From an uncultured Desulfosporosinus sp. (GTDB taxonomy: Bacteria; Bacillota; Desulfitobacteriia; Desulfitobacteriales; Desulfitobacteriaceae), in NCBI GenBank assembly GCA_927405585.1, contig CAKMJS010000032.1, positions 1 through 52,733 on the forward strand: a DNA stretch of 52,733 bases, written 5' to 3'. Position 1 is the first letter of the stretch; every line of letters begins with the position of its first letter. Of this stretch, positions 1,517 to 22,100 are shown in pieces. The notes beneath the pieces are model-generated. The model did not search any database and was not told the origin of the DNA. It saw nothing but the letters and a program-made list of their open reading frames with translations. The translations under genes were made by a program, and so were the position numbers.

Positions 1517-1534
1517 AAAGAGCCTCCTTCGTGT

Positions 1535-2179: not shown

Positions 2180-2308
2180 TAGGAGTTCTCCTTTCTTTCG
2201 AGATAAGGCAAATTCAAATTGTACTTAAATTCACTTTATGTCATATAGTTCGGCCTTCTCAGTTTTGTTCCTTTAGAAGAAAAAATGAAAAAAAGTGAGG
2301 TTCGTTGT

Positions 2309-2348
2309 AAAAAAAAACAAAAGCCCTTCTCTGCTAAGCGAGAAGGGC
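2309..2348 (-). terminator. Rho-independent terminator of the PucR-type regulator gene
   Basis: A perfect 9-bp stem (GCCCTTCTC at 2323-2331 with GAGAAGGGC at 2340-2348) with an 8-nt loop. Read on the minus strand it is followed by a long T run (the A-rich tract 2309-2322). It lies about 140 bp past the stop of the regulator at 2489 and ahead of the torD gene, separating the two minus-strand units. Confidence 0.85.
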
Positions 2349-2432
2349 ATGAAGACAAATTAAATAATTACTCAGGGGAGTTTTAACTTCCAATAAACGA
2401 TTAGCAGAACTTTCCAGGGCTAAATGCGCGAA

Positions 2433-2488
2433 GTTCGAACCTCGAACTTCGAACTTCGAACCTCGAACTTCGAACTTCGAACTTCGAC
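2433..2488. repeat. 7-bp tandem repeat, 8 units (CTTCGAA type)
   Basis: Eight uninterrupted heptamers: GTTCGAA, then CCTCGAA or CTTCGAA, ending CTTCGAC. The array ends exactly one base before the stop codon of the regulator at 2489. A related array sits at the 3' end of the gene ending at 47802, and both start after GCGAA. Confidence 0.95.
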
Positions 2489-4069: not shown

Positions 4070-4114
4070 AATACCACCTCGTCAGAATGTATAGGTTCAG
4101 ATTTGGACAAACAT

Positions 4115-4134
4115 GTTATATACTTGAGTATAAC
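4115..4134. promoter_or_regulatory. Small inverted repeat in a divergent promoter region
   Basis: GTTATA and TATAAC arms separated by 8 bp, 46 bp upstream of the PucR-type gene and 230 bp upstream of the sigma-54 activator gene. It could be an operator for the PucR-type regulator, but it is AT-rich and may be chance. Confidence 0.3.
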
Positions 4135-4361
4135 AAATTTTCACAAGATTGAAGCATTCAGATAATATTTTTCAAGATCAAAGAGGTGTACTCGTTTAAC
4201 TGAAATTGGACATCGAAACGGAGTATGGAGTACCACTTTCGCTTGAAGTGGGAGTCTCACTATTGGATAAAGTTTTGCAATTAATTAAACAGATTAGGGT
4301 TTACTTAAGCAGGGCGCTGCTCTAAGGGGAGCACGATGGTTGGATGGGAGGAGAAATAGTC

Positions 4362-6095
4362 ATGAAGTCAACTCCAGAGATAAAACTTGATCAGGTTTTT
4401 CAGGCGGTTAACGCTGGCATTATTGTGATTGATAGTCAGGATGCTGTCCGTTATTGTAACCCAGTTGCCGCTATCCTTATAGGGTTAGACTTGAAAGACA
4501 TTCTCGGCAAGAAAATTATTGATGTCATTCCGAATACTAAACTCAACAGGGTAGTAAGGGATGGAGAGGCCAACTCTGATCAATTATTCATTGGGGAACA
4601 GATGCTTATAACGAGCCGATCACCTATAAACCTAGATGGAGTAACAGTAGGTGCAGTTGCAGTTTTCCAAGATGGTAGTCAGTTACAAAGTCTATTGTCC
4701 CGTTTGGACACAACGCAAAATAGCCTTACAAGCTTGGAGAGCATTTTTGAACAGGCCTATGACGGCGTTATGGTCGTAGACTCTAAAGGTATCATAACTC
4801 GACTGACCAAAAGCTACTGTCGGTTCCTTAATATTGAACAAAAAGATGCGATTGGGCAATATTGTACGGATGTTCTACCCAACAGTCGCATGCATATTGT
4901 AGTGCAGACCGGAGAGGCGGAAATCGGAGAGGTCATGGACATTAATGGTAAAGAAGCCATGGTGATGCGTCTTCCTCTGAGAGAAGAGGGGAAAATTATC
5001 GGTGCCGTGGGTAAGGTAATGTTTCGAGATGTTCGGGACCTTCGCACCTTGGCAGAGAAGTTGGATTTATTGGAAAACAAGCTGAAATTTTATGAGAAAG
5101 AATTAAAACACTATCAGAAATTCCGCTATACCTTTAGTAATATTGTTGGCCAAAGCCCTGCTATTCTTCGGACCAAAGATTTGGCGGAGAAGGCGGCTCA
5201 AGGTAAGTCAACCGTACTATTGCGAGGAGAGAGTGGGACAGGTAAGGAGCTCTTTGCGCATGCCATTCATGCTGCAAGCACGCGACATGACCAGCCCTTT
5301 GTGCGGGTGAATTGTGGTGCAATCCCGACGGAGCTTTTGGAGGCAGAACTTTTTGGCTATGAGGAAGGGGCCTTTACCGGAGCTAAAAAAGGAGGTAAAC
5401 CGGGGAAATTTGAATTGGCTCATCGAGGGACCATTTTTTTAGACGAGATTGGTGACCTCCCGGTCGCTATGCAAGCCAAAGTATTACGGATCTTACAAGA
5501 AAAAGAAGTCGAACGAGTTGGTAGTAATCGGTTACAGCAACTAGACATAAGGGTCATCGCAGCCACTCATCGGAATTTGGAAAAAATGATCAGGGAAGGG
5601 GAATTTCGTCGCGATCTTTATTATCGACTCAATGTATTTACGGTGACGATACCGCCTTTACGAGAGAGGGAGGGGGATGTTTTACTTTTGTGCGAACATC
5701 TCTTGACGAAATTCCAACGAGAACTGGGATTATCTTTAAGAGAGCTCGATCGTTGGGTTGTTGAACTGTTTAAGCTTTACGCTTGGCCCGGAAACGTTCG
5801 TGAACTCCAAAATGCGCTTGAAAGAGCGATCAATGTGGCGGAAGGGGGCATTATTCTGCTAAAAGATCTCCCTTTATATCTTCAAGATTTAGAGGGAAGG
5901 AGAGGAAGCACGGCCTTGCAACCGTTAGCATTAGAACTGGCGGAGGCAGAGCGTAAAGCCATACTTAAGGCCCTTAAGACAACGGGTGGAAATAAAACAA
6001 ACGCCTCAGAACTTCTAGGAATCCATCGGACCAACCTTTACCGGAAAATGGAGAAATACGGTTTAGCAGGAGCTGACAGAGAAGGGCTAGTGTAG
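4362..6095 (+). CDS. Sigma-54-dependent activator, PAS-PAS-AAA+-Fis
   Basis: About 577 residues. Two PAS-type sensor modules occupy roughly 8-105 and 125-230, a short coiled coil follows, and then the sigma-54 interaction AAA+ domain: Walker A GESGTGKE near 289, the GAFTGA loop near 340 that contacts sigma-54, and Walker B FLDEIGDLP. A Fis-type helix-turn-helix (NASELLGIHRTNLYRKME) ends the protein. There is no receiver domain, so the signal is sensed directly or by the PAS modules. An in-frame ATG at 4344 exists, but the GGGAGGAG ribosome site lies between it and ATG 4362, so 4362 is the better start. The only clear -24/-12 promoter in the window lies about 175 bp after this gene, making the CoA-transferase operon the likely target. 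Confidence 0.93.
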   Translation: MKSTPEIKLDQVFQAVNAGIIVIDSQDAVRYCNPVAAILIGLDLKDILGKKIIDVIPNTKLNRVVRDGEANSDQLFIGEQMLITSRSPINLDGVTVGAVAVFQDGSQLQSLLSRLDTTQNSLTSLESIFEQAYDGVMVVDSKGIITRLTKSYCRFLNIEQKDAIGQYCTDVLPNSRMHIVVQTGEAEIGEVMDINGKEAMVMRLPLREEGKIIGAVGKVMFRDVRDLRTLAEKLDLLENKLKFYEKELKHYQKFRYTFSNIVGQSPAILRTKDLAEKAAQGKSTVLLRGESGTGKELFAHAIHAASTRHDQPFVRVNCGAIPTELLEAELFGYEEGAFTGAKKGGKPGKFELAHRGTIFLDEIGDLPVAMQAKVLRILQEKEVERVGSNRLQQLDIRVIAATHRNLEKMIREGEFRRDLYYRLNVFTVTIPPLREREGDVLLLCEHLLTKFQRELGLSLRELDRWVVELFKLYAWPGNVRELQNALERAINVAEGGIILLKDLPLYLQDLEGRRGSTALQPLALELAEAERKAILKALKTTGGNKTNASELLGIHRTNLYRKMEKYGLAGADREGLV

Positions 6096-6161
6096 CGATA
6101 TAGCGACACGTTGCAAAGTAGCTACACTCATGCTGGGATGAGATATAGGAGGGCTTTCACG

Positions 6162-6213
6162 TTCTACATCCTGTTTTGTGTAGCTATTGCGCTACACAAA
6201 ACAGGATGTAGAA
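6162..6213. promoter_or_regulatory. 23-bp perfect inverted repeat, candidate activator-binding site
   Basis: Arms at 6162-6184 and 6191-6213 pair without mismatch around a 6-nt centre; the core reads GTGTAGC-TATTGC-GCTACAC. Its centre lies about 85-110 bp before the -24/-12 promoter, the usual distance for an enhancer-type site of sigma-54 activators. A partial sequence (GTAGCTACAC) occurs at 6119-6127. It could instead be part of the 3' end of the upstream transcript. Confidence 0.5.
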
Positions 6214-6233
6214 TAATATTAGTTATTAGCAAC

Positions 6234-6264
6234 CCCCTGAAGAATAAGGACTTCAGGGGTTTTT
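6234..6264 (+). terminator. Rho-independent terminator of the sigma-54 activator gene
   Basis: CCCCTGAAG pairs with CTTCAGGGG across an 8-nt loop and is followed by TTTTT. It closes the activator transcript just before the sigma-54 promoter. Confidence 0.88.
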
Positions 6265-6270
6265 CTGTAC

Positions 6271-6288
6271 TTGGCATGAATCTTGCTT
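6271..6288 (+). promoter_or_regulatory. Sigma-54 (-24/-12) promoter
   Basis: TTGGCATGAATCTTGCTT carries TGGCAT, a 5-bp spacer and TTGCTT, a near-perfect match to TGGCAC-N5-TTGCW. It lies about 115 bp before the CoA-transferase start and downstream of an activator gene of the matching class. Confidence 0.88.
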
Positions 6289-6401
6289 AATAGTAAGTTG
6301 TGAGTAAATTATAGTATATTTAGACTCTTCTGTTAATAACACGTGAAGGCAGTGCCTAAGAGTCAACAATTACTGGAGATGGTAAGACAGGAGGGTGAGA
6401 A

Positions 6402-7952
6402 ATGAAGAAGGCAGTCTTGACAGCAGATGAAGCGATCGCCTTGATTAAAGACGGAAGTATGGTCGCCATTGATGGTTTTGTAAGCATTGGACACCCGGAA
6501 GAATTGACGACTGCTTTAGAAAAGAGATTTCTGGAGACGGGTACACCGAGGAATTTATCCTTGGTTTATGCGGCAGGGCAGGGAGATGCCAAGGATCGCG
6601 GCATGAATCATTTGGCGCATGAAGGTCTGATCAAACGAGTCGTGGGTGGACATTGGAATCTGGCACCTAAGCTTGGGAAGATGGCTGTGGAAAACAAAAT
6701 TGAAGCTTACAATCTTCCTCAAGGAGTAATTACCCATCTCTTCCGAGATATTGCTGCCGGTAAGCCAGGTACCTTAACCCATATTGGTCTGGAGACTTTT
6801 GTCGATCCTCGCAATGGCGGAGGTAAGCTTAATCAGATTACTCAGGAGGATTTAGTTGAGCTTACGAGTTTTCGAGGGAAGGAGTATCTCCTCTATCATG
6901 CCTTTCCGATTGACGTAGCCTTTCTACGTGGAACATCGGCGGATGAATTCGGAAATATCTCGTTTGAACGTGAAGCCCTCACCCTAGAAGGTCTCTCCAT
7001 TGCTCAAGCAGTTAGAAATAGTGGGGGAATTGTGATAGTGCAGGTGGAGCGTATGGTTCAAGGGGGAAGTATCAAGGCCAGAGATGTTAAAATTCCTGGG
7101 ATATTAGTGGATGCGATTGTAATCGCAAGCCGGCCAGAATTTCATATGATGTCCTTTAGCGAGCACTATAACCCCGCTTACAGTGGAGAACTAAGAATCC
7201 CCTTCACCGAGCTCAAGGCAATTCCTCTCGATGAACGAAAGATATTGGCCAGACGAGCTTTCTTGGAAGTCACTCCAGAAGCGATTGTTAATTTAGGAAT
7301 TGGAGTGCCTGAAGGAGTCGCGTCCGTTGCCGCGGAAGAAGGAGTTTTAGACCAATTTGTTCTGACGGTGGAATCGGGTCCGATTGGAGGAGTACCTGTC
7401 GGAGGGCAAGGCTTTGGGGCGAGTTTTAATCCGGACTGTGTCGTAGATCAGCCGTATCAGTTTGATTTTTATGATGGCGGGGGTTTGGATATCACGGTGT
7501 TAGGAATGGCTCAGTTGGATAGACAGGGTAATGTCAATGTAAGCAGGTTTGGTACACGTATTGCCGGAGCAGGCGGCTTTATCAATATTTCGCAAACCGC
7601 TAAAAAAGTAATTTTTTGTGGATCCTTTACTGCCAACGGATTAAAAGTCAAAGTTGAGGATGGTAAGCTCATCATCCTACAAGAGGGCGAGATTTCTAAG
7701 CTGATCCAAGACGTCGAGCATATCACGTTCAGTGGTAACTATGCCCGCAAGAAAGGGCAGAAGGTGTTGTATGTCACTGAAAGAGCTGTTTTCTCCTTAG
7801 GAGAACAAGGTCTTGTACTTGAAGAAATAGCGCCGGGCATCGATCTGCAAAAACACATCTTAGATCTGATGGAGTTTACCCCCATCATCTCGGAATCGCT
7901 GAAAATCATGAATCCCAAACTGTTTTATCCACAACTCATGAATGAGCGATAA
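6402..7952 (+). CDS. Propionate-CoA-transferase-type (class I) acyl-CoA:acetate CoA-transferase
   Basis: A 516-residue fused alpha-beta class I CoA-transferase, the length of the Pct/YdiF group. The glutamate that forms the glutamyl-CoA thioester is E324 in TVESGPIGG, which is, as I recall, the same number as in Clostridium propionicum Pct; GIGVPEG and GQGFG oxyanion-loop motifs surround it. The enzyme moves CoA from acetyl- or propionyl-CoA to a short-chain acid such as lactate, 3-hydroxybutyrate or acetoacetate. GGAGGG precedes the ATG. It is first in a sigma-54-driven set with a GntP permease, a dehydrogenase and a thiolase, suggesting its job is to activate the imported hydroxy or keto acid. 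Exact acid unknown. Confidence 0.9.
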
Positions 7953-8050
7953 TCACAATGATGAGCTGAAGGGGGGTGATGAAAACTAATATTAGTTTTC
8001 TAATGATGAAATGTGAGTAGCGAACATAATTAAATTGGAGGTGCATTTTA

Positions 8051-9448
8051 TTGGCGGTTCTTGGAATTATCTTGAGTTTGGTTTTGTTAATGTATATGGC
8101 CTATCGCGGGTTTTCTGTTATCTTTTTTGCGCCAGTCTTTGCTCTATTGGCAGCAGTATTCTCTGGCATGGCTTTAATGCCCACCTATACTGAAGTATTT
8201 CTCCCAAATATGGCGAATTACATTAAGATCTACTTCCCATTTTTCTTGCTTGGAGCCGTTTTCGGTAAAGTAATGGAAGAATCCGGAGCAGCTGAGTCAA
8301 TTGCTAAAGCAATTGTGAGTAAAGTTGGAGCTAAGCAGGCTATTTTGGCGGTTGTCTTATCAGCGGCGATTCTCACGTATGGAGGGGTTAGCCTTTTTGT
8401 GGTCGCCTTCGCTGTTTATCCCTTTGGTGCTTCTATGTTTAGAGAAGCAGATATCCCGAAACGACTGCTACCGGGAACGATTGCTTTAGGTGCCTTTACG
8501 TTCACCATGACAGCGATACCCGGTACCCCACAGATTCAAAATGCGATTCCCATGAAGTTTTTCAATACGGATTTGTATGCTGCGCCCGTGTTTGGTACAC
8601 TCGCCGCACTAATGATTTTTGGAGGCGGTATGTACTGGTTGGAATATCGTAAAAGGAAAGCACAAGCTGCAGGGGAAGGATATGGCCAGCATACCCTGCA
8701 GGAACCTGATACAGTTGAAGGCAGACACCTGCCTAGCCCCTATCTAGCGTTACTGCCTTTGCTTTCTGTCTTAGTGGTCACACTTATATTGCAAAAATTT
8801 GTTTTTCCAACATGGGATATAGCCAGTTGGGTAACTCAAGCTCCGTATAATATTGCTAAAACTGGAATAGTCGGAACCATGAATAATTGGGCCTTAATCA
8901 TTGCTCTCGTCGTAGGGATAACAATCGCCGTCCTTATCAATCCTAGAACCATGAAAGGAAATCTCGCCAAAGCGATCAATGCCGGAGCAATCGGCTCCTT
9001 GCTAGCTGTGATGAATACTGCTTCCGAAGTTGGCTATGGTAATGTTATCAAAACTCTGCCAGGGTTTAAATCAATTGCTAATTTCTTATTAGGCATAGGT
9101 CAAGGCGGCAGTCCACTTCCATCTGAAGCAGTCACAGTTAACGTCTTGGCTGGTATTACAGGTTCTGCCTCAGGTGGTATGAGTATTGCTCTAGATACCT
9201 TTGGAAAACAATATTTAGAATGGGCGACTAGGGTCAATATTAGTCCCGAGCTGTTGCACAGAGTTGCGAGTGTATCCTCGGGCGGGATGGATACTATGCC
9301 TCATAATGGTGCAGTCATCACCTTGTTGGGTATCGTTGGCCTCACGCATAAGGACTCTTATAAGGACATTTTCGTCACGTCACTGCTTATTCCAGTCGTT
9401 AGTTGCTTCATCCTTATATTCCTACAAGGCATCATAGGTTTCGTTTAA
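8051..9448 (+). CDS. GntP-family permease, likely short hydroxy-acid importer
   Basis: A 465-residue polytopic membrane protein with about 12 hydrophobic segments. It shows the GntP-family layout, including the AIPGTPQIQNAIP loop and an SGGMDTMPHNGA segment near the C-terminus. The family carries gluconate, and many members in butyrate or hydroxybutyrate clusters carry D-3-hydroxybutyrate or similar acids by proton symport. It starts at TTG (8051) with GGAGGT seven bases upstream. It lies 98 bp after the CoA-transferase and before a dehydrogenase and thiolase, so a 3-hydroxy acid is the favoured cargo; this is inferred from context. Confidence 0.85.
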   Translation: MAVLGIILSLVLLMYMAYRGFSVIFFAPVFALLAAVFSGMALMPTYTEVFLPNMANYIKIYFPFFLLGAVFGKVMEESGAAESIAKAIVSKVGAKQAILAVVLSAAILTYGGVSLFVVAFAVYPFGASMFREADIPKRLLPGTIALGAFTFTMTAIPGTPQIQNAIPMKFFNTDLYAAPVFGTLAALMIFGGGMYWLEYRKRKAQAAGEGYGQHTLQEPDTVEGRHLPSPYLALLPLLSVLVVTLILQKFVFPTWDIASWVTQAPYNIAKTGIVGTMNNWALIIALVVGITIAVLINPRTMKGNLAKAINAGAIGSLLAVMNTASEVGYGNVIKTLPGFKSIANFLLGIGQGGSPLPSEAVTVNVLAGITGSASGGMSIALDTFGKQYLEWATRVNISPELLHRVASVSSGGMDTMPHNGAVITLLGIVGLTHKDSYKDIFVTSLLIPVVSCFILIFLQGIIGFV

Positions 9449-9499
9449 ATATTGAGGGAATCGTTTAAAATTAAAGTTAAAAACGCTTTGAAACACACC

Positions 9500-9545
9500 A
9501 CCAAGATCCGGAGTGTCTTTAGACCTTTGGGTCTTGGTTAAATTT
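9500..9545 (+). terminator. Possible terminator/attenuator after the permease gene
   Basis: ACCAAGATCC (9500-9509) pairs with GGGTCTTGGT (9529-9538, one G-T pair) and is followed by a weak T-rich stretch. It may separate the permease from the dehydrogenase-thiolase genes or reduce read-through. Confidence 0.5.
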
Positions 9546-9610
9546 TTAAAACATTATAACCTAGCCAATAGCTAGAAAAGAAGAGCTCCGGTAAAAAGGG
9601 GAGAATAATA

Positions 9611-9667
9611 ATGCTGGAACAGTTGCTCCAGATGATGCCACTAGTGATCACCTTCAGTGGAAACTAG
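9611..9667 (+). CDS. Possible 18-residue leader peptide or gene remnant
   Basis: ATG with a well-placed AAGGGGAG ribosome site opens an 18-codon frame that begins MLEQLLQMMPLVITF and ends at TAG. It lies alone in the roughly 295-bp gap between the permease and dehydrogenase genes. It could be a leader, the rest of a lost membrane-protein gene, or chance; nothing else supports it. Confidence 0.25.
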   Translation: MLEQLLQMMPLVITFSGN

Positions 9668-9743
9668 CGCGTAAAAAGAGCAAACTGAATCACTAAAACG
9701 ATGTATTCAAAATTGTTTTATCTAGAATTAATGGAACTGAGCG

Positions 9744-10520
9744 ATGAACGTAATGAAAGGTGTGTACAGCAAAATGAAAATAAACGATAGAGTTGCCTTA
9801 ATCACAGGGAGCGGTCAAGGGATTGGGAAAGCCATAGCGCTCAACTTCGCGCGTGAAGGAGCAAAGATCGCGGTCAATGATATTTCCTTTAATGAAACCA
9901 AGGCTTTGGAAACCGTGGAAGAGCTTCGGAAACTAGGGGTGGAGGCTGAGCTTTTCCTCGCCGATGTCAGCAAAGAAGATGAAGTGAACAGCATGGTTGA
10001 AAAGATTATCGAGCGGTTCGGACGAGTGGATATTCTCGTGAATAACGCTGGAATCAATCGGGACGGCCTACTTCATAAAGGCAATCTTGCAAACTGGGAG
10101 GCTGTCATGGCGGTCAATCTGACAGGACCGTTTATCTGCACGAAAGCAGTGCTTCCGTCCATGCGAGCACAGGGATACGGAAGAATTGTGAATCTATCCT
10201 CACTGACAGCACGCATAGGAATCTTCGGGACAGGCTATTACGCAACGTCAAAGGCGGGGTTGATTGGCTTAACAAAAGTGACGGCGGTCGAAAATGTAAG
10301 TAAGGGTATAACCTGTAATGCCTTGGCCCCGGGATATATCAATACGGACATGATGAATAAATATCCTGAAGAGCAGTTAAAGGCTTTGATAGCCACGATT
10401 CCGGTTGGGCGATTTGCAGAACCAGAAGAAGTAGCAGATGCAGCCTTATTCTTAGCCTCAGACTCCTCTGCATACATTACGGGCGCGGTGCTGGATATTA
10501 ATGGCGGAAGTTTCATTTAA
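9744..10520 (+). CDS. Short-chain dehydrogenase/reductase, FabG/PhaB-like 3-hydroxyacyl(-CoA) dehydrogenase
   Basis: A classical SDR of about 250 residues: nucleotide-binding TGSGQGIG near the N-terminus, NNAG, the catalytic Ser in NLSSLT and the YATSK Tyr/Lys pair, and a family-typical GGSFI end. It interconverts a 3-hydroxy and a 3-keto acyl group with NAD(P)H. Set between permease and thiolase, it most likely oxidises 3-hydroxybutyrate or its CoA ester to the acetoacetyl level. Three in-frame ATGs compete (9744, 9753, 9774). The last gives the family-typical MKINDRVALITG start with AAAGG 13 bases upstream, so the true protein may be 248 residues. It ends 45 bp before the thiolase start and is probably cotranscribed with it. 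Confidence 0.88.
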   Translation: MNVMKGVYSKMKINDRVALITGSGQGIGKAIALNFAREGAKIAVNDISFNETKALETVEELRKLGVEAELFLADVSKEDEVNSMVEKIIERFGRVDILVNNAGINRDGLLHKGNLANWEAVMAVNLTGPFICTKAVLPSMRAQGYGRIVNLSSLTARIGIFGTGYYATSKAGLIGLTKVTAVENVSKGITCNALAPGYINTDMMNKYPEEQLKALIATIPVGRFAEPEEVADAALFLASDSSAYITGAVLDINGGSFI

Positions 10521-10565
10521 TATGAAATAATTAAATTGGAGGCAATAAACACAGGAGGTAGAGTT

Positions 10566-11744
10566 ATGAAAGAGATTGTTATTGTTAGTGCAGTTCGCAC
10601 GCCGATTGGATCCTTTGGAGGAGCTTTGGGCCAAATTCCAGCGGTTGAATTAGGTGCAATAGTTATCAAAGAGGCCATGAGACGGGCAGGCATAGCTCCC
10701 GAACAGGTTGATGAAGTGATTATGGGAAATGTCTTGCAAGCAGGCTTAGGGCAAAATCCTGCAAGGCAGGCTGCTATAAAAGCGGGTATTCCGCAGGAAG
10801 TGCCTTCGTGGACTCTAAATAAACTATGCGGATCCGGGCTGAAATCTGTCGAGAGTGCCGCGCAAGCCATTATTTCAGGAGATGCAGAGATCATTGTTGC
10901 CGGGGGAATGGAGAGTATGTCGATGGCTCCGTATGTCTTAGAAAAAGCTCGTACGGGTTATCGGTTAGGAAATGGCACGATGATTGATACGATTCTGCAA
11001 GATGGGCTTATTGATGCGTTTGATGAGATTCACATGGGAATTACGGCAGAGAATATCGCTGAACAGTTTAAAATCTCTCGTGCAGAGCAAGACGCGTATG
11101 CGCTGTTGAGTCAAAATCGTACCGAAGCAGCGATCAAGGCAGGTGTTTTTGATGACGAGATTGTTCCTGTCCTGATCCCTCAGCGTAAGGGAGAACCGAT
11201 TGTCTTCAGTAGAGATGAATTTCCTAAGCACGGCACGACGATTGACTCTCTGACCAAACTGCGTACAGCCTTTAAAAAGGAGGGAACAGTGACTGCGGGG
11301 AACGCCTCGGGTATTAATGATGGAGCCGCCGCAGTGGTCGTAATGTCTAAGGAAAAAGCTCTTGAATTGGGGTTGCAGCCGCTGGCTTCCATTGTATCGT
11401 TTGCTTCCGCGGGTGTGGATCCTAAAATTATGGGGACTGGTCCGATTCCAGCCAGCCGCAAAGCGCTTTCTAAAGCAGGTCTTACTTTTAAGGACATTGA
11501 TCTTGTGGAAGCCAATGAAGCCTTTGCTTCTCAAACGATTGCAGTCGCCCGAGAGCTTCAGCTTGATTCCGATAAAACCAACGTCAATGGCGGGGCCATT
11601 GCTCTGGGACATCCAATTGGCGCGAGCGGGACACGAGTCCTAGTCACACTCTTGTACGAAATGAAGCGTAGAGACGTTAAACGTGGACTTGCAACATTAT
11701 GTATTGGTGGAGGGCAAGGTACAGCTATGGTAGTCGAACGGTAG
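10566..11744 (+). CDS. Acetyl-CoA C-acetyltransferase (thiolase)
   Basis: A 392-residue biosynthetic/degradative thiolase. The nucleophilic cysteine is C88 in [10 protein letters not shown]. The C-terminal catalytic blocks are [15 protein letters not shown] (His) and LCIGGGQG (second Cys). It splits acetoacetyl-CoA to two acetyl-CoA, or runs in reverse. The start is set at the ATG behind AGGAGGTAGAGTT; an in-frame ATG at 10536 precedes that ribosome site and is unlikely. It completes a transport, CoA-transfer, oxidation and thiolysis set with the genes upstream. Confidence 0.93.
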
Positions 11745-11792
11745 AACACAAAAGAGAGAGTACCTAATCAAAGAAACTCAATAAATATTTGA

Positions 11793-11832
11793 AATATAAC
11801 TCCAAGGCGTAATAATGCCTTGGAGTTATATT
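11793..11832 (+). terminator. Hairpin after the thiolase gene
   Basis: Sixteen-bp perfect stem (11793-11808 with 11817-11832) with loop GTAATAAT, 48 bp past the thiolase stop. It has no long T run but sits where a terminator is expected. The rest of 11745-12135 is AT-rich, and I see no gene in it. Confidence 0.65.
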
Positions 11833-12135
11833 AGATCTAGCGTACTATTTGAAAAAAGCATCAATCATCTACGTAGTTGTTGGGTTAGAGAATATAATCA
11901 CAAAGCAGGCGAATTACAATATTCAAAGAATATATAGAATATTTTAATTAATAAAAATGAAGGCTATATTAACTTGTACAAAATGAAATCCAGAGATTTT
12001 TACAGTGAACTGGTTGTATCAGAGGTAAAACGGACAACGAAGAATAATAGAAAACATGTTTGAGTGTAAAGAAGCGTCACGAAAGAAAATAGCTTTGGAA
12101 AGATTAACTTATAATGAAAAAATGGAGGGAATAGT

Positions 12136-13317
12136 ATGGACTTTCAATTAACTTCAGAGCAAAAAATGCTGGTAGAACTGGCCGACAAACTGGGCAAGAA
12201 CGAATTTGCCTCTAAAGCAGCCCGCTGGGACAAAAATCATGAGTACCCATGGGAGAATGTTGAAATAATGCGCCAGGCCGGCCTCTTAGGTATGACTATC
12301 CCAAAAAGGTTTGGTGGTAGGGAGCGGCCATTAATTGACGTCGTGCTGGTAATTGAACAAATTGCCAAGTATTGTGGTGTCACTGCTCGAATTGTCGTGG
12401 AGACCAATATGGGAGCGCTTGGTTCAATTATGGCGTATGGAACGGAAGCGCAACAAAAGCTAGTCGCTAAACGAATTTTAGAGGAAGGGGATAAGCCAGC
12501 TATCGGGATGACCGAGCCCAATGCCGGGACGGATCTCACTGCCCTAAAGTCAACTGCAGTGCAAAAAGGCGACCACTATATTCTCAATGGTACAAAACAC
12601 TGGATTACTGGCGGCACCATTTCCAATACTCATCTTATTTTCGCCCGAATTATCGATAAGAACGGTGTTGATCAAGGTATTGGAGGTATATTGGTAGATA
12701 AAGGAACTCCCGGCTTTACGTTTGGTAAAATAGAGGACGCGATGGGTCTTAGAGGAATTCCAGAGTCCGAGCTGATCTTCGAAGATTGTGAAGTTTCCGA
12801 GGAAAATATAGTAGTTTGCGACCGCAAAGAGGGCTTCAAGAAGTTAATGAATGGTTATAATGCCCAACGTATCGGCGCTGGTACTGTATCCTTAGGCATA
12901 GCTCAGGGAGCACATGATCTCGCTATTGAATATATGAAACAACGTGAAGCTTTCGGCAAGAAAATCAGCGAATTCCAAGGATTGCAATGGATGGTAGCTG
13001 AGGCCGAAATGAAATTAAATGCTTCCCGTCTGTTGCTTTATCGCGCAGCTTGCAATGCCCAACATTTAGCCAATAATGTCATGCTACCGCAAATGATGGA
13101 AGCTTCTATTGCAAAGGCTTTTACTGCACATGCTTCTTTTGAAGTTGTCAGCGACTCGCTCCAAATGTTCGGTGCTGCCGGATATTCTCGCGACCTACCA
13201 CTTGAACGCATGCTGAGGGATGTCCGTATGTTCCAAATCGGTGGTGGTACTACCGAGGCGCAGATGAATATGATCTCTCGGGGCATTTTTAAAACGCGGT
13301 TTGATTATAAGAAATAA
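12136..13317 (+). CDS. Acyl-CoA-dehydrogenase-fold flavoprotein lacking the catalytic glutamates; candidate 3-sulfinopropionyl-CoA desulfinase
   Basis: A 393-residue protein with the full acyl-CoA dehydrogenase fold: MTEPNAGTD and KHWITGG FAD-contact segments, REAFGKKISEFQ and the C-terminal arm. The two places where dehydrogenases carry the catalytic base are both changed. The helix-G position is Gln244 (YNAQRIG instead of an ER pair), and the usual EGT position is Gly370 (IGGGTTEAQ). Arg85 (TARIVVE) is also present. As I recall it, the Advenella desulfinase structure has this same trio (Arg84, Gln246, Gly366); that enzyme has no dehydrogenase activity and cleaves 3-sulfinopropionyl-CoA to propionyl-CoA and sulfite. 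A class III CoA-transferase follows within 68 bp. The alternative is an ordinary or CaiA-like reductase with a shifted base. Fold certain; function inferred. Confidence 0.85.
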   Translation: MDFQLTSEQKMLVELADKLGKNEFASKAARWDKNHEYPWENVEIMRQAGLLGMTIPKRFGGRERPLIDVVLVIEQIAKYCGVTARIVVETNMGALGSIMAYGTEAQQKLVAKRILEEGDKPAIGMTEPNAGTDLTALKSTAVQKGDHYILNGTKHWITGGTISNTHLIFARIIDKNGVDQGIGGILVDKGTPGFTFGKIEDAMGLRGIPESELIFEDCEVSEENIVVCDRKEGFKKLMNGYNAQRIGAGTVSLGIAQGAHDLAIEYMKQREAFGKKISEFQGLQWMVAEAEMKLNASRLLLYRAACNAQHLANNVMLPQMMEASIAKAFTAHASFEVVSDSLQMFGAAGYSRDLPLERMLRDVRMFQIGGGTTEAQMNMISRGIFKTRFDYKK

Positions 13318-13385
13318 CTGGCCTTTAGTTGGACGAGCTGACTCCGTGCGCTTGGCAGTTCATATGGGATTTGGGGGAATTGTTA

Positions 13386-14576
13386 ATGGAAAAGCTACTT
13401 CAGAATATCAAAGTACTTGATTTTACACGGGTATTAGCAGGTCCATATGCCACAATGATTCTAGGCGATATGGGCGCAGAGATAATCAAAGTCGAGCCAT
13501 TAGAGGGTGATGAGAGCCGGAGTTGGCCACCGACGTTGGATCAAGGAGAAAGTGGATATTTCTGTGCGATTAACCGCAATAAAAAGGCAATAACACTTAA
13601 TTTGAAAGACCCTCTGGCCCCAAAAATAGTCGCTGATCTGGCCCGTAATGTAGACGTTGTGATCGAGAATTTTACTCCAGGAGTTGCAAAAAAGCTTCAT
13701 ATTGATTATGAAACGTTAAGCAAAGAGAATCCAGGACTTGTGTATTGTTCGTTATCTGGGTTTGGGCAAAATGGCCCTTACCGGGATAAGAAGGCTTATG
13801 ACCCTATTATTCAGGGTATGACGGGACTGATGTCTATTACCGGAGAAAAAGGTCGCTCACCTGTCAAGGTAGGTATTCCAATCACGGATTTAGTCGCTGC
13901 TCTTAATGCTGTTATTGCGGTGCAGTCCGCACTTTTATACCGCCAAGTAACGGGTCAAGGACAATATGTTGACGTGGCCTTGTATGACTCACTCGTTTCC
14001 CTACTAACTGTCATGGCTTCAGAGTATTTCGCAACGGACGTTGTGCCCGGTCGATATGGTATGAATCATATCCACCGCGTTCCTGCCCAAGCCTTTGAAA
14101 CGATGGACGGTAGCTATGTACAGGTGGTGGCCACGAATGAGTCGATGTATCCTAAGTTTTGTCAGGTGATTGGTATACCGGAGTTAATTGAGGATGAACG
14201 CTTTCTTACCAACAATATGCGAGTAGAAAACAGGGAAATAATAGTGCCTATTTTAGAAGAAAGAATGCGGACCAAATCTAGTGCCGAGTGGCTGGAACTT
14301 TTTGAAGCAGCTGGCTTGCCGTGTGGGCCAATCTTAAATATTAAGGAAGTTCTTGAAGATCCTCACGTGAAGGCCAGAGAAATGTGCCATGAAATTGAGC
14401 ATCCAATCGCTGGTGTCATTAAGCAATTGGGTTTTCCGTACAAATTTTCGTTAACCCCTGCTAGTATTGACAGTCGTCCACCATTACTTGGTGAACATAA
14501 TTATGAAATCCTAGCTAAGCATTTAGGGTATACCACGGCAGAAATAGACGCACTTAAAGCTGGAAAGGTTATTTAG
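13386..14576 (+). CDS. Class III (CaiB/BaiF, formyl-CoA-transferase family) CoA-transferase
   Basis: A 396-residue protein of the usual family length. The N-terminus has the LDFTRVLAGPYATMILGDMG block that binds CoA. The catalytic aspartate is D168 in GIPITDLVAA, against D169 in formyl-CoA transferase. The C-terminal ENR, GLPCGPI and DPHVKAREM segments also fit the family. The start is the ATG at 13386 behind TTGGGGGAA; a TTG at 13329 would add 19 residues without a ribosome site. It would pass CoA to the substrate of the preceding flavoprotein. Class III enzymes serve carnitine, oxalate, bile acid, aryl and, in Variovorax, 3-sulfinopropionate metabolism, so the acid is open. Confidence 0.9.
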   Translation: MEKLLQNIKVLDFTRVLAGPYATMILGDMGAEIIKVEPLEGDESRSWPPTLDQGESGYFCAINRNKKAITLNLKDPLAPKIVADLARNVDVVIENFTPGVAKKLHIDYETLSKENPGLVYCSLSGFGQNGPYRDKKAYDPIIQGMTGLMSITGEKGRSPVKVGIPITDLVAALNAVIAVQSALLYRQVTGQGQYVDVALYDSLVSLLTVMASEYFATDVVPGRYGMNHIHRVPAQAFETMDGSYVQVVATNESMYPKFCQVIGIPELIEDERFLTNNMRVENREIIVPILEERMRTKSSAEWLELFEAAGLPCGPILNIKEVLEDPHVKAREMCHEIEHPIAGVIKQLGFPYKFSLTPASIDSRPPLLGEHNYEILAKHLGYTTAEIDALKAGKVI

Positions 14577-14613
14577 CTTACACAATACGCGAGACAAAGG
14601 CAGGGATGGAGTT

Positions 14614-14784
14614 TTGAACAAAGAAGCACTGGATCAATGGTTAGCACGCCTCTTTGACCGAGATCGCAGGGCAACCGCCAAACTCATTTCTTGGGTGGAA
14701 GACGATATCGAGCGAGCGCATATTATGCGGTCTGTCCTAAAAAAACCGGACAGCAGACATATAAACCCGGTGGCACGGGGGTGA
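14614..14784 (+). pseudogene. Truncated MeaB/ArgK-type G-protein (N-terminal fragment)
   Basis: A TTG start with GGATGGAG upstream opens 56 codons that match the N-terminal helices of MeaB/ArgK (LARLFDRDRRATAKLISW, then VEDDIERAH and MRSVLKK). The frame stops just where the P-loop (GVTGPPGAGKS) should begin, and no further MeaB sequence follows. MeaB proteins guard coenzyme-B12-dependent methylmalonyl-CoA mutase. A remnant behind a possible propionyl-CoA-forming pair suggests a once longer operon that lost its 3' part. Confidence 0.6.
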
Positions 14785-14864
14785 ATTCTGATTTCTTGAC
14801 TTTGTCGGATTTAACCATGAAAGTATAAATAGTGAACAGATAAATTATAGTGACTAATTATTAA

Positions 14865-14896
14865 AACGGGCAGTCGTAGTGCGAACAGCCCGTTTC
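14865..14896. terminator. Hairpin between the CoA-transferase region and the AraC gene
   Basis: AAACGGGC pairs with GCCCGTTT over a 16-nt loop. The T-rich side is on the minus strand, so it is a weak plus-strand terminator. Nothing else is seen between 14785 and 14992 except a ribosome site. Confidence 0.5.
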
Positions 14897-14992
14897 AGTA
14901 TTCCTAAGGAGACGTAGCCTTTAATAAATTCATATTTTTCAGTTTGCCACTGGAGGTAGGCAATTATCCAGTCTTGCAGAGGAGGCATTTTA

Positions 14993-15817
14993 TTGTTGGA
15001 AAATAAAAATTTAAATTTCCATTCTAAAGGTTCTGAGACAAAACTGCGTCTTGAAGATGTTCAACGAGGACTATGTGATTTAGGAGATTCATTAGAGGAA
15101 AAAGAGGATCTCTTCTTCAAAATTATTGAATTTTTCCCTTATCCTATCCAAGTTCTTTCTTCCAATGGTACATCAGTAATGATTAATACTGCTTTTCTTA
15201 TGGAATTTGAAATTCAATCTAAAGATCAAGTTGAAGGAATATACAATATATTTTTGGATCCTTACATAGTAGAGAACGGCTATTTGGAAAGTGTTAAAAA
15301 TGTATTTAAAGGCCAAACTGAATTTCTTAGGGATTTAAAGGTTCCTTTTCAAGATATTATAAATCGTTATGAACTTAAGATTTATAATACTTATACGATG
15401 TATCATGATTTAACAGCATTTCCAATTATAAATAGTCAGGAAAAAGTATCATTTGTGGTAATTATCTTTATGAATAGAAGGATATATCGAGCTAAAAAAA
15501 GCATTATACAAGCAATAGAATACATGACAACCAATTGGCAGAATGAGTTTAAGATTAGTGAAGTAGCGAAAGCTGCAAATCTTAGTCCCTATTATTTTTC
15601 TAGGCTTTTTAAGAATAATATTGGCATTACTCCTTATAATTACTATCTTAACTTAAAAATTAATCATTTAAAGGAAAAATTATGTGATATCAACCTTTCA
15701 ATATCGGAGGCGTTTACAGCTTGTGGTGTGGATTATCACGGACATTTTGCCAAGATGTTTAAAAAAAATGTAGGAGTTACCCCTTCAAAATATCGTGAAA
15801 CAAATAACCATAAATAA
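14993..15817 (+). CDS. AraC-family regulator with N-terminal PAS-like sensor
   Basis: A 274-residue protein. Residues about 45-165 look like a PAS-type sensor (FFPYPIQVLSSNGTSVMINT). The last 100 residues are the double helix-turn-helix AraC domain, with KISEVAKAANLSPYYFSRLF and the closing GVTPSKYRE. It starts at TTG (14993) or the adjacent TTG, with AGAGGAGG upstream. It lies between the CoA-transferase region and the giant surface-protein gene, all on one strand, and either could be its target. Its AT-rich codon use resembles the surface gene more than the upstream operon. Confidence 0.88.
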   Translation: MLENKNLNFHSKGSETKLRLEDVQRGLCDLGDSLEEKEDLFFKIIEFFPYPIQVLSSNGTSVMINTAFLMEFEIQSKDQVEGIYNIFLDPYIVENGYLESVKNVFKGQTEFLRDLKVPFQDIINRYELKIYNTYTMYHDLTAFPIINSQEKVSFVVIIFMNRRIYRAKKSIIQAIEYMTTNWQNEFKISEVAKAANLSPYYFSRLFKNNIGITPYNYYLNLKINHLKEKLCDINLSISEAFTACGVDYHGHFAKMFKKNVGVTPSKYRETNNHK

Positions 15818-15852
15818 CGATAGATAAGAATTAAATAGTTTCACTAATATTG

Positions 15853-15881
15853 GCTTTCAGACCATTCTCTGAAAGCTTTTT
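15853..15881 (+). terminator. Rho-independent terminator of the AraC-type gene
   Basis: GCTTTCAG pairs with CTGAAAGC over an 8-nt loop and is followed by TTTTT. The rest of 15882-16142 is AT-rich leader of the surface-protein gene with no visible gene. Confidence 0.88.
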
Positions 15882-16142
15882 GCGTTTCATCCCATTTATA
15901 TTTTCAACTTCGATGGTAAAATCTCTTCGCACCAAATTATCCCTTTTAAGATAACCAAGCCAATTCTAACTATAAATAAGAAATTATAGCAATATTTGGA
16001 CTGATCACAGCATTTAATTCCTATCTATGAAGGAGTATATAAAATAAAGTTTATTGAGTGGAAATCTGAACTAAAATTAACTTCCAATTTCAATGAAAAA
16101 GAGATAAATGACCCCTGAAAATTATATAAGGAGGGAAAATAA

Positions 16143-19100
16143 ATGCCTAATCCGCATCTTAGCGAAGAGTTGAGATTTGCAAAGGTGAATTGGCGATTTC
16201 GTGCAGTATATCTTACCTTTGTTTTCTTGCTCACGATTGTGTTTGTTTTTATACCAGATATTGTAAAGGCAAAGGAATCTTCAGACACGCCTTGGAATTA
16301 TAGAAGCCCTTTGCCTACGGCTAACACGCTGTTCAGAGCCGACTACATACATGGCAAATTCTTTGCTTCAGGAATGAATGGTACCATGTTATCCTCAACC
16401 GATGGAGAAAACTGGGACACCTACGATTTGGGAAATACAGACTCCTTAAGGGGATTTGCCTATGGAAACAATACCTATGTTATAGTTGGCTATGCAAGCG
16501 GTGTTCTAGGGACGATTTATACATCGGTGGATGGTATCAACTGGAACCAAGCAGCAACCACGCCAGACCATCAACTGATGGATATTGTTTACGGAGATAA
16601 TAAATTTGTTGCTGTTGGGCAAAGCGGCAAGATTTTTACCTCTAGTGATGGATCTATATGGGAAAAAAAGCTAGTTTCAGAAATAGAAAATAACCTAAAT
16701 TCAATCACCTATGCCAATGGTATTTATGTGGCAGTGGGGTCTAACGGATGTATATTCACGTCTCTTGATGGGGAAAGTTGGACTGCGCGAGGATCTACTT
16801 CTTATGATTTGTGGGATGTAACTTACGGGGACGGCAAGTTTGTTGCTGTCGGTGGTAAATACGGCACCTATGAGCCATCTCGTATCTACACATCGCTCAA
16901 TGGAGAGGCTTGGACAGCGTGTAGTCTGCCTTCTGACTATTCCCGGCTTAATGGTGTTACCTACGACGGCAACCAATTTGTGGCTGTAGGTTATTCAAGT
17001 TTAGGGACAAATGCTTACGTCTTAAAATCAGCAAATGGAACAACCTGGTCGGTGGTTAATACAGGAATCAAAGGTTCTTTCAATGGAATTGCCGCCGGCA
17101 ATGGGATTTTGGCTGCAGTTGGTGCTTTTGGTAACCTATATACATCGACCGATGCCCAGAACTGGATTTCCTTAAATTCGGGCACGAAGCACACCTTGAA
17201 TGGTATTGCTTATCATGACAATACTTTTGTCTCAGTTGGAGAAGATGGAGCAGTTCAGACTTCCCCTGATGGAGTTGCGTGGACTATACAAAATTCAGGT
17301 ACCGCAAAAGACCTGAAAGCCATAAACTACCTAGATGATGGATTTATTGCAGTAGGAGAGAAAGGTGAAATTCTTACATCAAATAACGGTTTAGCTTGGA
17401 TTAGAAAAAGCTTAGGATTTTCTGTTCCTTTGCTGGATATTGCTTACGGTAACGAGATGTATGTAGCCGTAGGGGGAAGCGGATATTCCGCAGTAATCGT
17501 CACATCAACGGACGGCGTTACTTGGAACACAGTTAGCCACGGGTACTCCGTACCGCTCATGTCTGTTGCTTATGGGAATGGCGTTTTTGTGGCCTTGGGA
17601 AAAAACGGTCAAGTATACAGATCAAGTGATGGGTCAAGTTGGCCGCAAACTATGTTGCCGGGATCGGGTCACTATCCAACCGATATTATTTATGCAGACG
17701 GTAAGTTTTTTGGCGTGGGATATGGTGAAGTTTATTCTTCTGTCGATGATGGGGTAACCTGGACTGTGACAGATAGTAGTATCGATTATTCTCTGAATTC
17801 CATAGCTTATAGTGGTGGAAATCTAGTGGCAGTAGGTCAATTTGGAAAGATAGTGGCATCCAATGATAATGGGGAAAGTTGGGTTGAGCAGTCCTCTGGA
17901 CTATGGGGTGAGTATACTGAATTATTTGATGTTGTTGCAAGTACAAACAGTGTGGGGAATAACACCTTTGTTGTAGTAGGTAAAAACGGAATTCTATTAC
18001 AGTCCGACCCGATTGTTAATCAGGGGGAAGTTGACAATCTCCCGCCAACCTGGCCGGAGAACAGCAATCTGACTGTAGCCGACGTAACGGATACCAGTTT
18101 GGTTCTGTCTTGGGACGCTGCGAATGACAATGTTGGGGTAATCGGATATAAAGTATTCAAAAATGGTGAAGAATTAATTATTCTTGCCGGAGATATTTCA
18201 AGCTATACGGTCACTGGTTTGGCTTCAGAGACGAATTATACATTTAAAATAGAAGCTGGAGATGCTGCAGGAAACTGGAGTACAAATGGTCCTGAGAAAG
18301 CGGTTTCACAATCTCCCTTGGCAATTTGGACATCAAGAGATGCAGGCAGAACAGAAGACTTATTTGATATAACCTGGAGCAACGGAACATTTATGGTGGT
18401 AGGACAGGATGGAACAGTACTGAAATCACCGGATGGAGTAAACTGGAGTAGCCAGACCTTACAAGTAAGTGGAGAGAGTAGGGACTTACTGGGTGTGGCT
18501 TACGGAAACAACAGGTTTGTCACAGTGGGACCTCAATTTTATGCTATGACAGAAGATGAGCAGAACTGGAATAGCAGCCTGGCAATCAATATGGTTGACT
18601 TTAAGAGTGTAGCTTATGGTATTGAAGGTACACAAAACAATCAGCGGCAGGTTTTCATTGCATCAGGGATGACTAACGGAGCAGATGGAAATGAAGAGGG
18701 ATGGGGCAGATTCAGTGCTTCAGAAAACGGAATCAACTGGGGAGTCATGGAGGTAAATAACCGCGAGAGTATAAACGATATATCTTACAATACGAATAAC
18801 GGCTTTTTTGCAGGAGTAACTGATACAAAAATTATAATATTCAACTCACTTGGTATTTATACAACACAAGTCTTTACAGATAGCCTAACAGGTATAGCCT
18901 GTAATAATGAAACATACGTTGCCATTGGTGTAGGAGGAAAATTAAGTGAAAGTGGTATCATCTATACTTCGACAGATAGGGTAACCTGGAACAAAGTTAA
19001 GACGACCACCGATCCCCTTTTGGGAGTATCCTATGGTGAAGGCATGTTCATTGCGGTAGGGAAATTCGGTACTGTGCTATCCTCTATAGACGGTACGAAT

Positions 19101-22100
19101 TGGATACAGTTCAACAGCGGAGTAACTGAAGACCTTTATGGGGTTGCCTTCGGAAATGACAGCGTAGTACTCGTAGGTCAAGGGGGAACGATACTTCAGT
19201 CCCAGGCGTTGACACAACCATCTATATCTCAAAAACTATCTAAGGTCAAAACTCCGACTTGGAATCAGAATACAACAGAATGGGAAGCAGTAGCAAATGC
19301 AGAGGCTTATGATGTAAAACTATATAAAGGTGGTAATGTGGTTGATACTCATACAGTCAATGAAGGTATTGGGCAATATGATTTTACCCAGATAATAACT
19401 GACCTAGGAGCAGGAACCTATAGTGTAACCGTGCAGGCTAAAGGAAACGGAGCACCTTATTATGACGGAGCTGTATCTTATCCTAGAATAAGAGTTGTGC
19501 TGGTTAGGGTGACAGGAGTAACCTTACAACCTAGCGAACTGAGAATGAGTTTGGGGCAAACAGTTCAGCTCAACGCAATTATTGAACCTGCAAATGCAAC
19601 AAATAAGAATGTCGCCTGGTTATTATTGGATGAACAAGAACAATTATCGGTAGATGTTGATGGTAATGTAACCGCCCTAACCCCTGGTCAAGCTACTATC
19701 ACGGTCAGAACTGAAGATGGAGAATATGAAGCTGCCTGTCAGGTAGAGGTTACAAGCGGCGATACATTAATTCCGATTATTACGGTTTTGCCAGAAGGAA
19801 ATGCAGTCATCGGTCAAGAGATACAGGTAAGTGGAGCAAGTTCATACGCCAATGAGGAAGGCCAGGAGATTGTATTATATGAGTGGGATTTTGATGAAGA
19901 CGGAAATTTCGAGGCACAGGGAGTAAATCAGACCCATACGTATCATAGTACAGGTCAATATTCTATTGAACTTAGAATCACAGACAACTTTGGTGTAACC
20001 AAAGAAACGAGCGTTAGTGTAGAAGTTCAAGAAGCAGGTCTTCCGCCGGTAGCGTCATTTACCATCATTCAGCAAACAGCGGAAGGAACAGTTTCAGTCG
20101 ATGCCTACTCATCCTCTCATCCTGATGTAAACCGTCATATCGTGTTATTTGAATGGGACTGGAACCCTGAGTATGTTTCAATTGATAGCTTTATATTCAC
20201 CATCGATGATACCGGAGAAACGCAACAACATTTATTCTCTCAGATTGGCAGCTATAAAGTTGCCCTGAGAGTTACTGATGATGCTGGACTACAGTCCATT
20301 GCAGTAAAGACAGTAATAATAAAAGCATTGCGGGGTCCGACAGCGGATGCAGGCGGTCCTTATGAAATCCTATGGGAACAAGACGCAAGCCTTGATGGCA
20401 GAGCTTCTACTGACCCGGATAGAAGCATGGGCGATTCCATTGTCAAGTATGAATGGGATTTCAATGGTAACGGACTGTATTTAGCATTAGGTGATTCTCC
20501 TACCGTACTTTGGAGTGATATACACTCATTATTAATGCAGAAATATTCCTCAGTGATTGATACGAATACGACATTTATTTTGCAGATAAGAATTAAAGTT
20601 ACAGACACGACTGGAAGATTTCATACAGATGTTACAACATTAACAATTCGTAGAGACCCTGGTCAAAATCAAGGCGATGATACATTAATTCCATTAATCA
20701 CAGTTTCGCCAGAAGGAAATGTAGTCATCGGTCAGGAGATACAGCTAAGTGGAGCAAGTTCATACGTCATCAATGATGAAGGCGGGACCATTGTATTATA
20801 TGAATGGGATTTTGATGGAGATGGAATCTACGAAGCTCAGGGGATCAACCAGACCCATACTTTCCAAAGCACAGGTCAATATGATATTGAACTTAGAATA
20901 ACCGATAACTTGGGAATAACCAATAAAACGAGTGTCAGAGTAGAGGTTCAAGAAGTCGCTCTTCCGCCGGCAGCAATATTTAGGATCATATCGCAAACGG
21001 CAGGGACAGTCTCAGTCGATGCCTCCTTATCCTACCATCCTGATTCACGTCAGATCGTGTTATATGAATGGGACTGGAACCTAGAGTATGGTTCAAATAA
21101 TATGTTTACACCCGAGGCTGTAGGAGTAACTCAACAACACTCGTATTCGCAAATGGGCAGTTATCAAGTTGCATTGAGGGTAACTGACGATGTAGGATTA
21201 CAGTGCATTGCACTAAAATCCGTAACAATAGAAGCAAACAATTCTCCGCTGGCGAATGCAGGTGGTCCTTATGAGATTCTTTGGGGACAAGACGCTAGCT
21301 TTGATGGCAGTACTTCTACTGACCCTGATATCAGCATGGGCGATTCCATTGTCAAGTACGAATGGGACATGAATCATAATGGGCTTTATTCAGATGCGAC
21401 AGGTCCTAATCCTACTTTACTTTGGGGTGCTATACATTCATTGTTGATCCAGAATTACTCGTCAGTCATTGATACTCAAACGACATTTGTGCTGCCAATA
21501 AGAATTAGAGTTACAGATAGGACAGGAAGATCTCATGCAGATGGCACATCATTAACAATTCGTAAAAGCCAGAATCAAAATTCAGGTGACGGGGGATCAT
21601 CAGATAGTGGCGGCAGCACTTCCACAAGTACAACCGATATAGTTGCTGGGGATGTCATCGATAGTAAAACTGGGCAAATAGTAAAAGGAATGGAAGCAAA
21701 GGTTACAACAGAAACTAACGGGATGAAAACCGTTGAAGTAAAATCTCAGGAAGCAATTTTAATGCAACAGTCCAATGGCCAACAAAGCCCGGTAAGTGAT
21801 TTAAGTAAATTGGGATTTTCAGCCACCCCCAACTCAGCAGTCCAGATCACATTGGCTACGGATGGAACCATTCAAATTACTAACCTAGCCAACGCAACAG
21901 AATCTACCTTTGCTGTCACCTATGATTTAGGTAACGGTCAAATCATCACTATCGGTACGATTGAAGTCGAAGTCGACTCCAATGGGGAAGTCAGCATAAG
22001 CAGTACTTTAATTGACCCCTATGGCATTATTACCGATCCAACGACAGGCAAGGTGATTGCTGGCACTCATGTCACCTTGTACTATGCCGATACGGAAAGA

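Follow-up and report, generated by a model that had tools for sequence, protein, structure and literature searches.

The window analyzed here, a 52,733-nucleotide stretch of DNA from an uncultured Desulfosporosinus sp. (contig CAKMJS010000032.1), carries on its forward strand two adjacent genes that a first-pass annotation had proposed as a pair for the desulfination of 3-sulfinopropionate. The first gene (12136..13317) encodes a desulfinase-like protein of 393 amino acids with the acyl-CoA dehydrogenase fold, referred to below as the query, and includes the codons for Arg85 (12388-12390), Gln244 (12865-12867) and Gly370 (13243-13245). It is preceded by the segment GGAGGG (12124..12129, same strand), which was read from the sequence as its likely ribosome-binding site. 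The second gene (13386..14576) encodes a class III CoA-transferase of 396 amino acids when translated from the ATG at 13386; the open reading frame itself opens at a TTG codon (13329-14576), the ATG being the likelier of the two starts and leaving 68 bases between the genes. In what follows, L numbers designate loci or sequence rows and G numbers genomes, with G000 being the genome of the window.

When the query is aligned with the 3-sulfinopropionyl-CoA (3SP-CoA) desulfinase of Advenella (PDB 5af7), Arg85, Gln244 and Gly370 fall on Arg84, Gln246 and Gly366 of that enzyme, residues that we take to be catalytic there, and the correspondence put forward in the first-pass annotation is thereby borne out. 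No variation is seen at any of the three among the 12 full-length members of the query clade or the nine desulfinase rows defined below, and none of 10 acyl-CoA dehydrogenase rows bearing the YEG motif has Arg, Gln or Gly at these positions. Neither site at which an acyl-CoA dehydrogenase could hold its catalytic Glu does so in the query, in which Gly370 occupies the YEG site and Gln244 the second site, presumably that of the isovaleryl-CoA-dehydrogenase type. Butyryl-CoA and other YEG dehydrogenases share the fold and superfamily of the query but keep the catalytic Glu and are without Arg85, Gln244 and Gly370. The desulfinase itself is described, in the available text of one report, as having no Glu of YEG and as eliminating sulfite instead (PMC8360864). 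Beyond these residues, the query and the characterized enzymes Acd/AcdA (Advenella mimigardefordensis DPN7 and Variovorax paradoxus TBEA6; PDB 5af7 and 5ahs; family model NF042439) have in common the motifs WITGG, YNxQR and MFxI(A/G)GGT.

Forty-four positions can be termed desulfinase-specific, in that the nine desulfinase rows all agree at them and no more than 10% of the 10 dehydrogenases share the residue; 29 of these are conserved throughout the 12 query-clade members and 30 in the query, more than would be expected by chance. The same positions are retained in 25 cases by the Chloroflexota outgroup L057 and in 4 to 11 cases by six other relatives. Among 21 positions that are invariant in dehydrogenases and rare in desulfinases, 133 is retained in 10 of the 12 query-clade members, 376 in all 12 and 109 in just one, and no member retains any of the other 18. 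These comparisons support a predicted active site that is desulfinase-like, not dehydrogenase-like.

The overall relationships of the protein are in keeping with its active site. By sequence, the best match of the query in the PDB is the 3SP-CoA desulfinase 5af7 (354 bits, with the next entry at 283), and the predicted model of the query (pLDDT 84.9 overall, below 50 in loop 370-372) has its best fold match in 5ahs/5af7 (TM 0.92, Z 54.4), the next different protein reaching Z 49.7 (Foldseek, VIA-align 2). In a maximum-likelihood tree of 38 rows, the 12 query-clade and nine desulfinase rows are united at 99/98 to the exclusion of the dehydrogenases sampled, and each of the two clades stands at 100. 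The first-pass annotation had named a grouping with active dehydrogenases that use another base as fatal to its proposal; with the dehydrogenases sampled, no such grouping was recovered. The desulfinase rows comprise one biochemically characterized enzyme (Advenella 5af7), five plasmid genes annotated as desulfinases and three unannotated close relatives; second copies of loci (L001, L020, L035, L036, L037, L050, L051 and L056) and the partial L017 were left out of the tree. The query clade is a separate sister of the desulfinase clade rather than nested within it, its members being 41-51% identical to the desulfinase rows, and the query is 33-41% identical to the 10 YEG rows. A Chloroflexota homologue at 42% identity (L057; gene at 7632-8804 of L060) branches outside both clades and displays a signature of Arg, Asn, Trp, YNxQR and GGG; it represents a further group, the third, in which the active site is altered in this way.

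The product of the second gene matches Pfam PF02515 (CoA_transf_3) at 422 bits against a cut-off of 23, which confirms that a class III CoA-transferase gene follows directly. Its putative catalytic residue, Asp168, lies in an ITD motif and is presumed to act as Asp169 does in Frc. Because the nearest PDB entry by sequence is succinate-hydroxymethylglutarate CoA-transferase, succinyl-CoA is a plausible CoA donor. A transferase gene adjoins the desulfinase-like gene in four of the 12 full-length query-clade members (the window, L009, L015 and L016), and the four partner transferases make up a single clade at 100/99, within which the two Desulfosporosinus rows group with each other. Pairing of acd with a class III CoA-transferase is described in the available parts of reports on Advenella (PMC5373536) and on Variovorax, where the genes are act and acdA (PMC6370202). 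The order of the genes differs, with the acd-like gene preceding the transferase in the query pair and following it in L021-L023.

It seems rather probable that the pair constitutes a small catabolic unit for breaking the C-S bond in a C3 organosulfur acid, through activation by succinyl-CoA and subsequent release of sulfite and propionyl-CoA. In the first step, the CoA-transferase would move CoA from succinyl-CoA to 3-sulfinopropionate, or to some closely similar compound that likewise bears an acid group at C3, by way of an acyl-Asp168 intermediate. In the second, which is suggested by homology, fold and the invariant active-site residues, Arg85 of the desulfinase-like protein would bind the acid group, and the enzyme would release sulfite and leave propionyl-CoA with no net redox change; since Gln244 and Gly370 replace both possible catalytic Glu residues, the reaction is not expected to begin with an alpha,beta-dehydrogenation. 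DsrAB could then reduce the sulfite, and propionyl-CoA could be converted through the methylmalonyl-CoA pathway to succinyl-CoA, resupplying the first step and closing the cycle. Candidate genes are present for every step except the supply of the sulfinate.

The genome of the window (G000; 4.48 Mb, 98.6% complete) encodes DsrA and DsrB at 554 and 493 bits, over cut-offs of 393 and 342, which supports the predicted status of the host as a sulfite reducer, in agreement with the first-pass annotation. Among other carriers, dsr genes exceed the cut-offs in G437 (dsrA and dsrB), G440 (dsrB), and G438 and G1166 (dsrA). The latter two are betaproteobacterial, as are G439, which has two adjacent NIR_SIR open reading frames only, and G442, which has neither. 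A strong statistical link to dsrA in Betaproteobacteria was considered and not adopted, three of four carriers, themselves related, being suggestive only when 61 of the 300 genomes surveyed in the order exceed the cut-off.

Contig C3 of G000 carries a methylmalonyl-CoA mutase-type large part together with MeaB (307 bits, cut-off 241), and contig C92 carries a second mutase large part, an epimerase-like open reading frame (recognized by eye), a biotin-carrier-like open reading frame and an mmdA-like subunit at 852 bits, below its cut-off of 999. These are candidate genes for the use of propionyl-CoA via the methylmalonyl-CoA pathway. The meaB fragment downstream of the pair (14591..14757, + strand; frame 14614-14781, 56 aa) had also been cited in support of propionyl-CoA metabolism. 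It is real, with 85.7% DNA identity over 168 bp to the start of the intact meaB on contig C3 (locus L093), but it duplicates that gene in truncated form, from its 5′ end, and was not found at the other Desulfosporosinus locus, L009; for these reasons it provides no evidence for the pathway, and it probably lies outside the system.

Several observations weigh against a sulfinate-cleaving pair. The query scores 502 bits against the equivalog model NF042439, short of the curated cut-off of 600, as do three other members of its clade (481-508 bits), whereas two controls from the desulfinase clade pass (L022 from Mesorhizobium at 677 bits and L054 at 625). Furthermore, the stem below the query clade is long (0.46 changes per column), and 13 positions are fixed differently between the two clades. 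Because the cut-off is missed while both controls pass it, the query is classed, on sequence grounds, as a member of a sister subfamily of the 3SP-CoA desulfinases, and for the same reason its substrate can be inferred only.

The partner gene introduces a further discrepancy. The query transferase resembles Act-type transferases in family, conserved Asp and place beside acd, but it falls outside the clade of four plasmid acd-adjacent transferases (Paraburkholderia, Mesorhizobium, Diaphorobacter and Cupriavidus; loci L021, L022, L023 and L026) that stood in for Act, in a tree whose deeper forks are weak. Conceivably, the pairing of desulfinase-type genes with class III transferases may have arisen more than once. 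Pairing is also not universal among plasmid desulfinase genes, since two of those so annotated (L024 and L025) lack an annotated CoA-transferase alongside. The first-pass proposal of a desulfinase pair stands with respect to active site, tree and fold, but not with respect to the curated family cut-off or the kinship of the transferase. Outside the four paired loci, neither the Chloroflexi locus nor any of seven full-length betaproteobacterial loci was seen to have a class III CoA-transferase next to the gene (the sequence of L011 extends for only about 280 bases downstream). Instead, five of these seven have TetR-FadE directly downstream, four of the five also with FadB (L018 ends first), a beta-oxidation context that suits neither a sulfinate nor a sulfonate substrate well and tells against any one simple account.

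The chief weakness concerns the origin of the sulfinate. In the desulfinase pathways described, a thiol dioxygenase makes the sulfinate, according to the available text of both reports (PMC5373536, PMC6370202), and these pathways therefore require oxygen. Homologues of this enzyme, 53-57% identical to the Diaphorobacter dioxygenase that adjoins acd, are present in all four betaproteobacterial carriers tested. By contrast with Acd/AcdA hosts, no thiol dioxygenase (cysteine or 3-mercaptopropionate dioxygenase, Mdo) was found in the five anaerobic-lineage carriers G000, G443, G440, G441 and G437, which are drafts and in some cases incomplete (G443 probably at about 79%), so that the source of 3-sulfinopropionate in these organisms is unexplained. 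No dsr-like pair was found in G441 or G442, and G443 showed only a nirB/NirA-like protein.

A sulfonate substrate would need no oxygen for its making, and the five anaerobic-lineage carriers without a detected thiol dioxygenase are compatible with one. It could be that 3-sulfopropionate is activated to 3-sulfopropionyl-CoA and then cleaved at its C-S bond, yielding sulfite and acryloyl- or propionyl-CoA. This compound is produced by Enterococcus gilvus and serves as an electron acceptor for Bilophila, as stated in the available part of one report (PMC11489063), and its degradation in Bilophila is called unclear in the available text of a 2026 review (PMC12890257), both of which lend some attraction to the proposal. 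So do the surroundings of the second copy in the betaproteobacterial genome G1166 (L058, 1533-8615), where the acryloyl-CoA reductase AcuI (534 bits, cut-off 440), a TctC receptor, an AMP-binding enzyme and an enoyl-CoA hydratase lie upstream; this context fits C3-acid breakdown, although AcuI was found in the available flanks of only one of the 12 query-clade members. Set against this, the three catalytic positions carry the same residues as the sulfinate-cleaving enzyme, and elimination from a sulfonate should call for a base acting on C2, with neither of the usual Glu residues there to serve. Because the active site thus has no obvious base for elimination, a sulfonate substrate is considered unlikely. 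If it were correct, the clade would represent an oxygen-independent C-S lyase, with 3-sulfopropionate being activated by means of succinyl-CoA in sulfate and sulfite reducers and split into sulfite and a C3-CoA ester. Such a route would account for the respiration of a compound with which the anaerobic breakdown of sulfoquinovose ends and for whose degradation an explanation is lacking. The beta-oxidation genes of the betaproteobacterial loci, where five of seven copies directly precede TetR-FadE, are more readily accommodated if the protein serves beta-oxidation by dehydrogenating a dicarboxylic acyl-CoA with the help of a different base. The conserved acid at position 89, which is Glu in all 12 query-clade members, could be such a base. 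The thiolase and short-chain dehydrogenase/reductase (SDR) genes upstream of the pair in the window would also suit such a role. Yet position 89 is Asp or Glu in all nine desulfinase rows as well, the sampled dehydrogenases fall outside in the tree, and in the window a hairpin-containing gap of 391 bp separates the pair from the upstream genes, which have no DNA in common with L009, all of which makes a dehydrogenase quite unlikely.

Positions 369-371 raise a different comparison. They read GGG in all 12 query-clade members, and the benzylmalonyl-CoA dehydrogenase IaaF is described as having GGG in place of YEG (PMC8360864, available text), which is consistent with an oxidative decarboxylase acting on a malonyl-type CoA ester. 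The IaaF pathway also uses a phenylsuccinyl-CoA transferase and a mutase (PMC8360864, same text), the former being a family III enzyme according to the portion available of another report (PMC11659651). However, GGG is found in three of the nine desulfinase rows too, including the Mesorhizobium protein that passes the desulfinase cut-off. IaaF differs from the query in being a redox enzyme; in the text available, it forms an isolated branch, with the desulfinase labelled as another, and all enzymes of its branch sit in iaa operons (PMC8360864), a comparison made from the published description rather than from the 38-row tree. No mutase or electron-transfer flavoprotein (ETF) gene was seen among the neighbors scanned, nor was an iaa operon, and an IaaF-like function appears decidedly improbable. 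Returning to the favored interpretation, in which the pair cleaves 3-sulfinopropionate or a very close analogue, a sister enzyme and its likely CoA source in sulfite-reducing anaerobes would mean that anoxic habitats have an unknown supply of sulfinates or else that the substrate is a new one. In both cases organic sulfur would gain a further route to sulfite and sulfide, one that is CoA-based and non-radical. No report of the pair in anaerobes was found in the open-access literature, among the matches listed.

A scan of 84,980 species genomes, which depends on exact matches to short peptide patterns and so detects no more than close relatives, returned 11 loci, consisting of 10 close relatives (70-90% identity, one partial) and one distant protein; the close relatives occur in metagenome-assembled genomes (MAGs) of Desulfosporosinus, Chloroflexi, Betaproteobacteria, Desulfobacteraceae and Desulfuromonadales. 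Six homologues reside on plasmids (46-50% identity), five of them annotated as desulfinases. Two of 45 genomes in the family of the host carry the gene, the query included. Surveys at higher rank scored at most four candidates per genome, so that misses are possible; they matched nine of 398 genomes in the phylum of the host (at 1e-85) and, at 1e-95, one of 395 in the phylum of G440, four of 399 Burkholderiales (two in the query clade and two in the desulfinase clade) and two of 400 Chloroflexota (one in the query clade). Among the nine matches in the phylum of the host, the query alone has the residues of its clade, seven of the other eight (L027-L034) having YEG and one (L028) Glu at 244. 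Viral contigs, scanned once by exact matching of short patterns, yielded no confirmed carrier.

Comparison of the window with the second Desulfosporosinus locus (L009, 13 kb) shows that the two share only window bases 12134-14576, at 85% identity (blastn, E up to 1e-5). Because the DNA of the pair is shared and that of the flanks is not, the two genes may travel as a unit, and homologous pairs occur in two further MAGs (L015 and L016). The other copy in the genus of G000 is in G027, which, to judge from the agreement in contig number and hit, appears to be the same genome as G443, the Desulfosporosinus MAG that contains L009. Upstream of the pair in L009 (128-7919) are a fumarase part, SdhC, SdhB, SdhA, a TauE/SafE-family protein (sulfite exporter family), a Rieske protein, cytochrome b and a weakly matched cytochrome c; downstream of that in L015 are TRAP transporter components, along with a sigma-54 regulator of the PrpR type. 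A foreign composition was rejected for the pair, the G+C contents of the two genes (46% and 44%) being similar to that of the window (44%), and composition therefore shows no recent transfer.

Upstream of the pair in the window lie genes for a FadX-type CoA-transferase, a GntP-like permease, an SDR reductase and a thiolase. The gap of 391 bp between the thiolase gene and the pair has a G+C content of 30% and contains a perfect inverted repeat with 16-nt arms and an 8-nt loop (11793..11832, no strand assigned), a hairpin that the terminator scan did not pick. The gap and the repeat suggest that the pair is a transcription unit separate from the upstream genes, and membership of these genes in one operon with the pair was set aside on the basis of this gap, with its hairpin, and the absence of DNA common with L009. 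Control of the pair by sigma-54 was also set aside, a simple pattern scan of bases 1-16500 having found no site between the thiolase gene and the pair and matches only at 6272, 9175 and, on the minus strand, 13452. The sigma-54-like site at 6272 is situated 5′ of the FadX-type CoA-transferase gene and 3′ of a sigma-54 activator gene (4344-6095). Downstream, the pair is adjoined by a gene for an AraC-type regulator (14993..15817, + strand; Pfam HTH_18; G+C 29%), which is at most a putative member of the unit. Farther along the window, 16143-23273 encodes a putative surface protein of 2376 residues with many repeats, as judged by eye from its translation.

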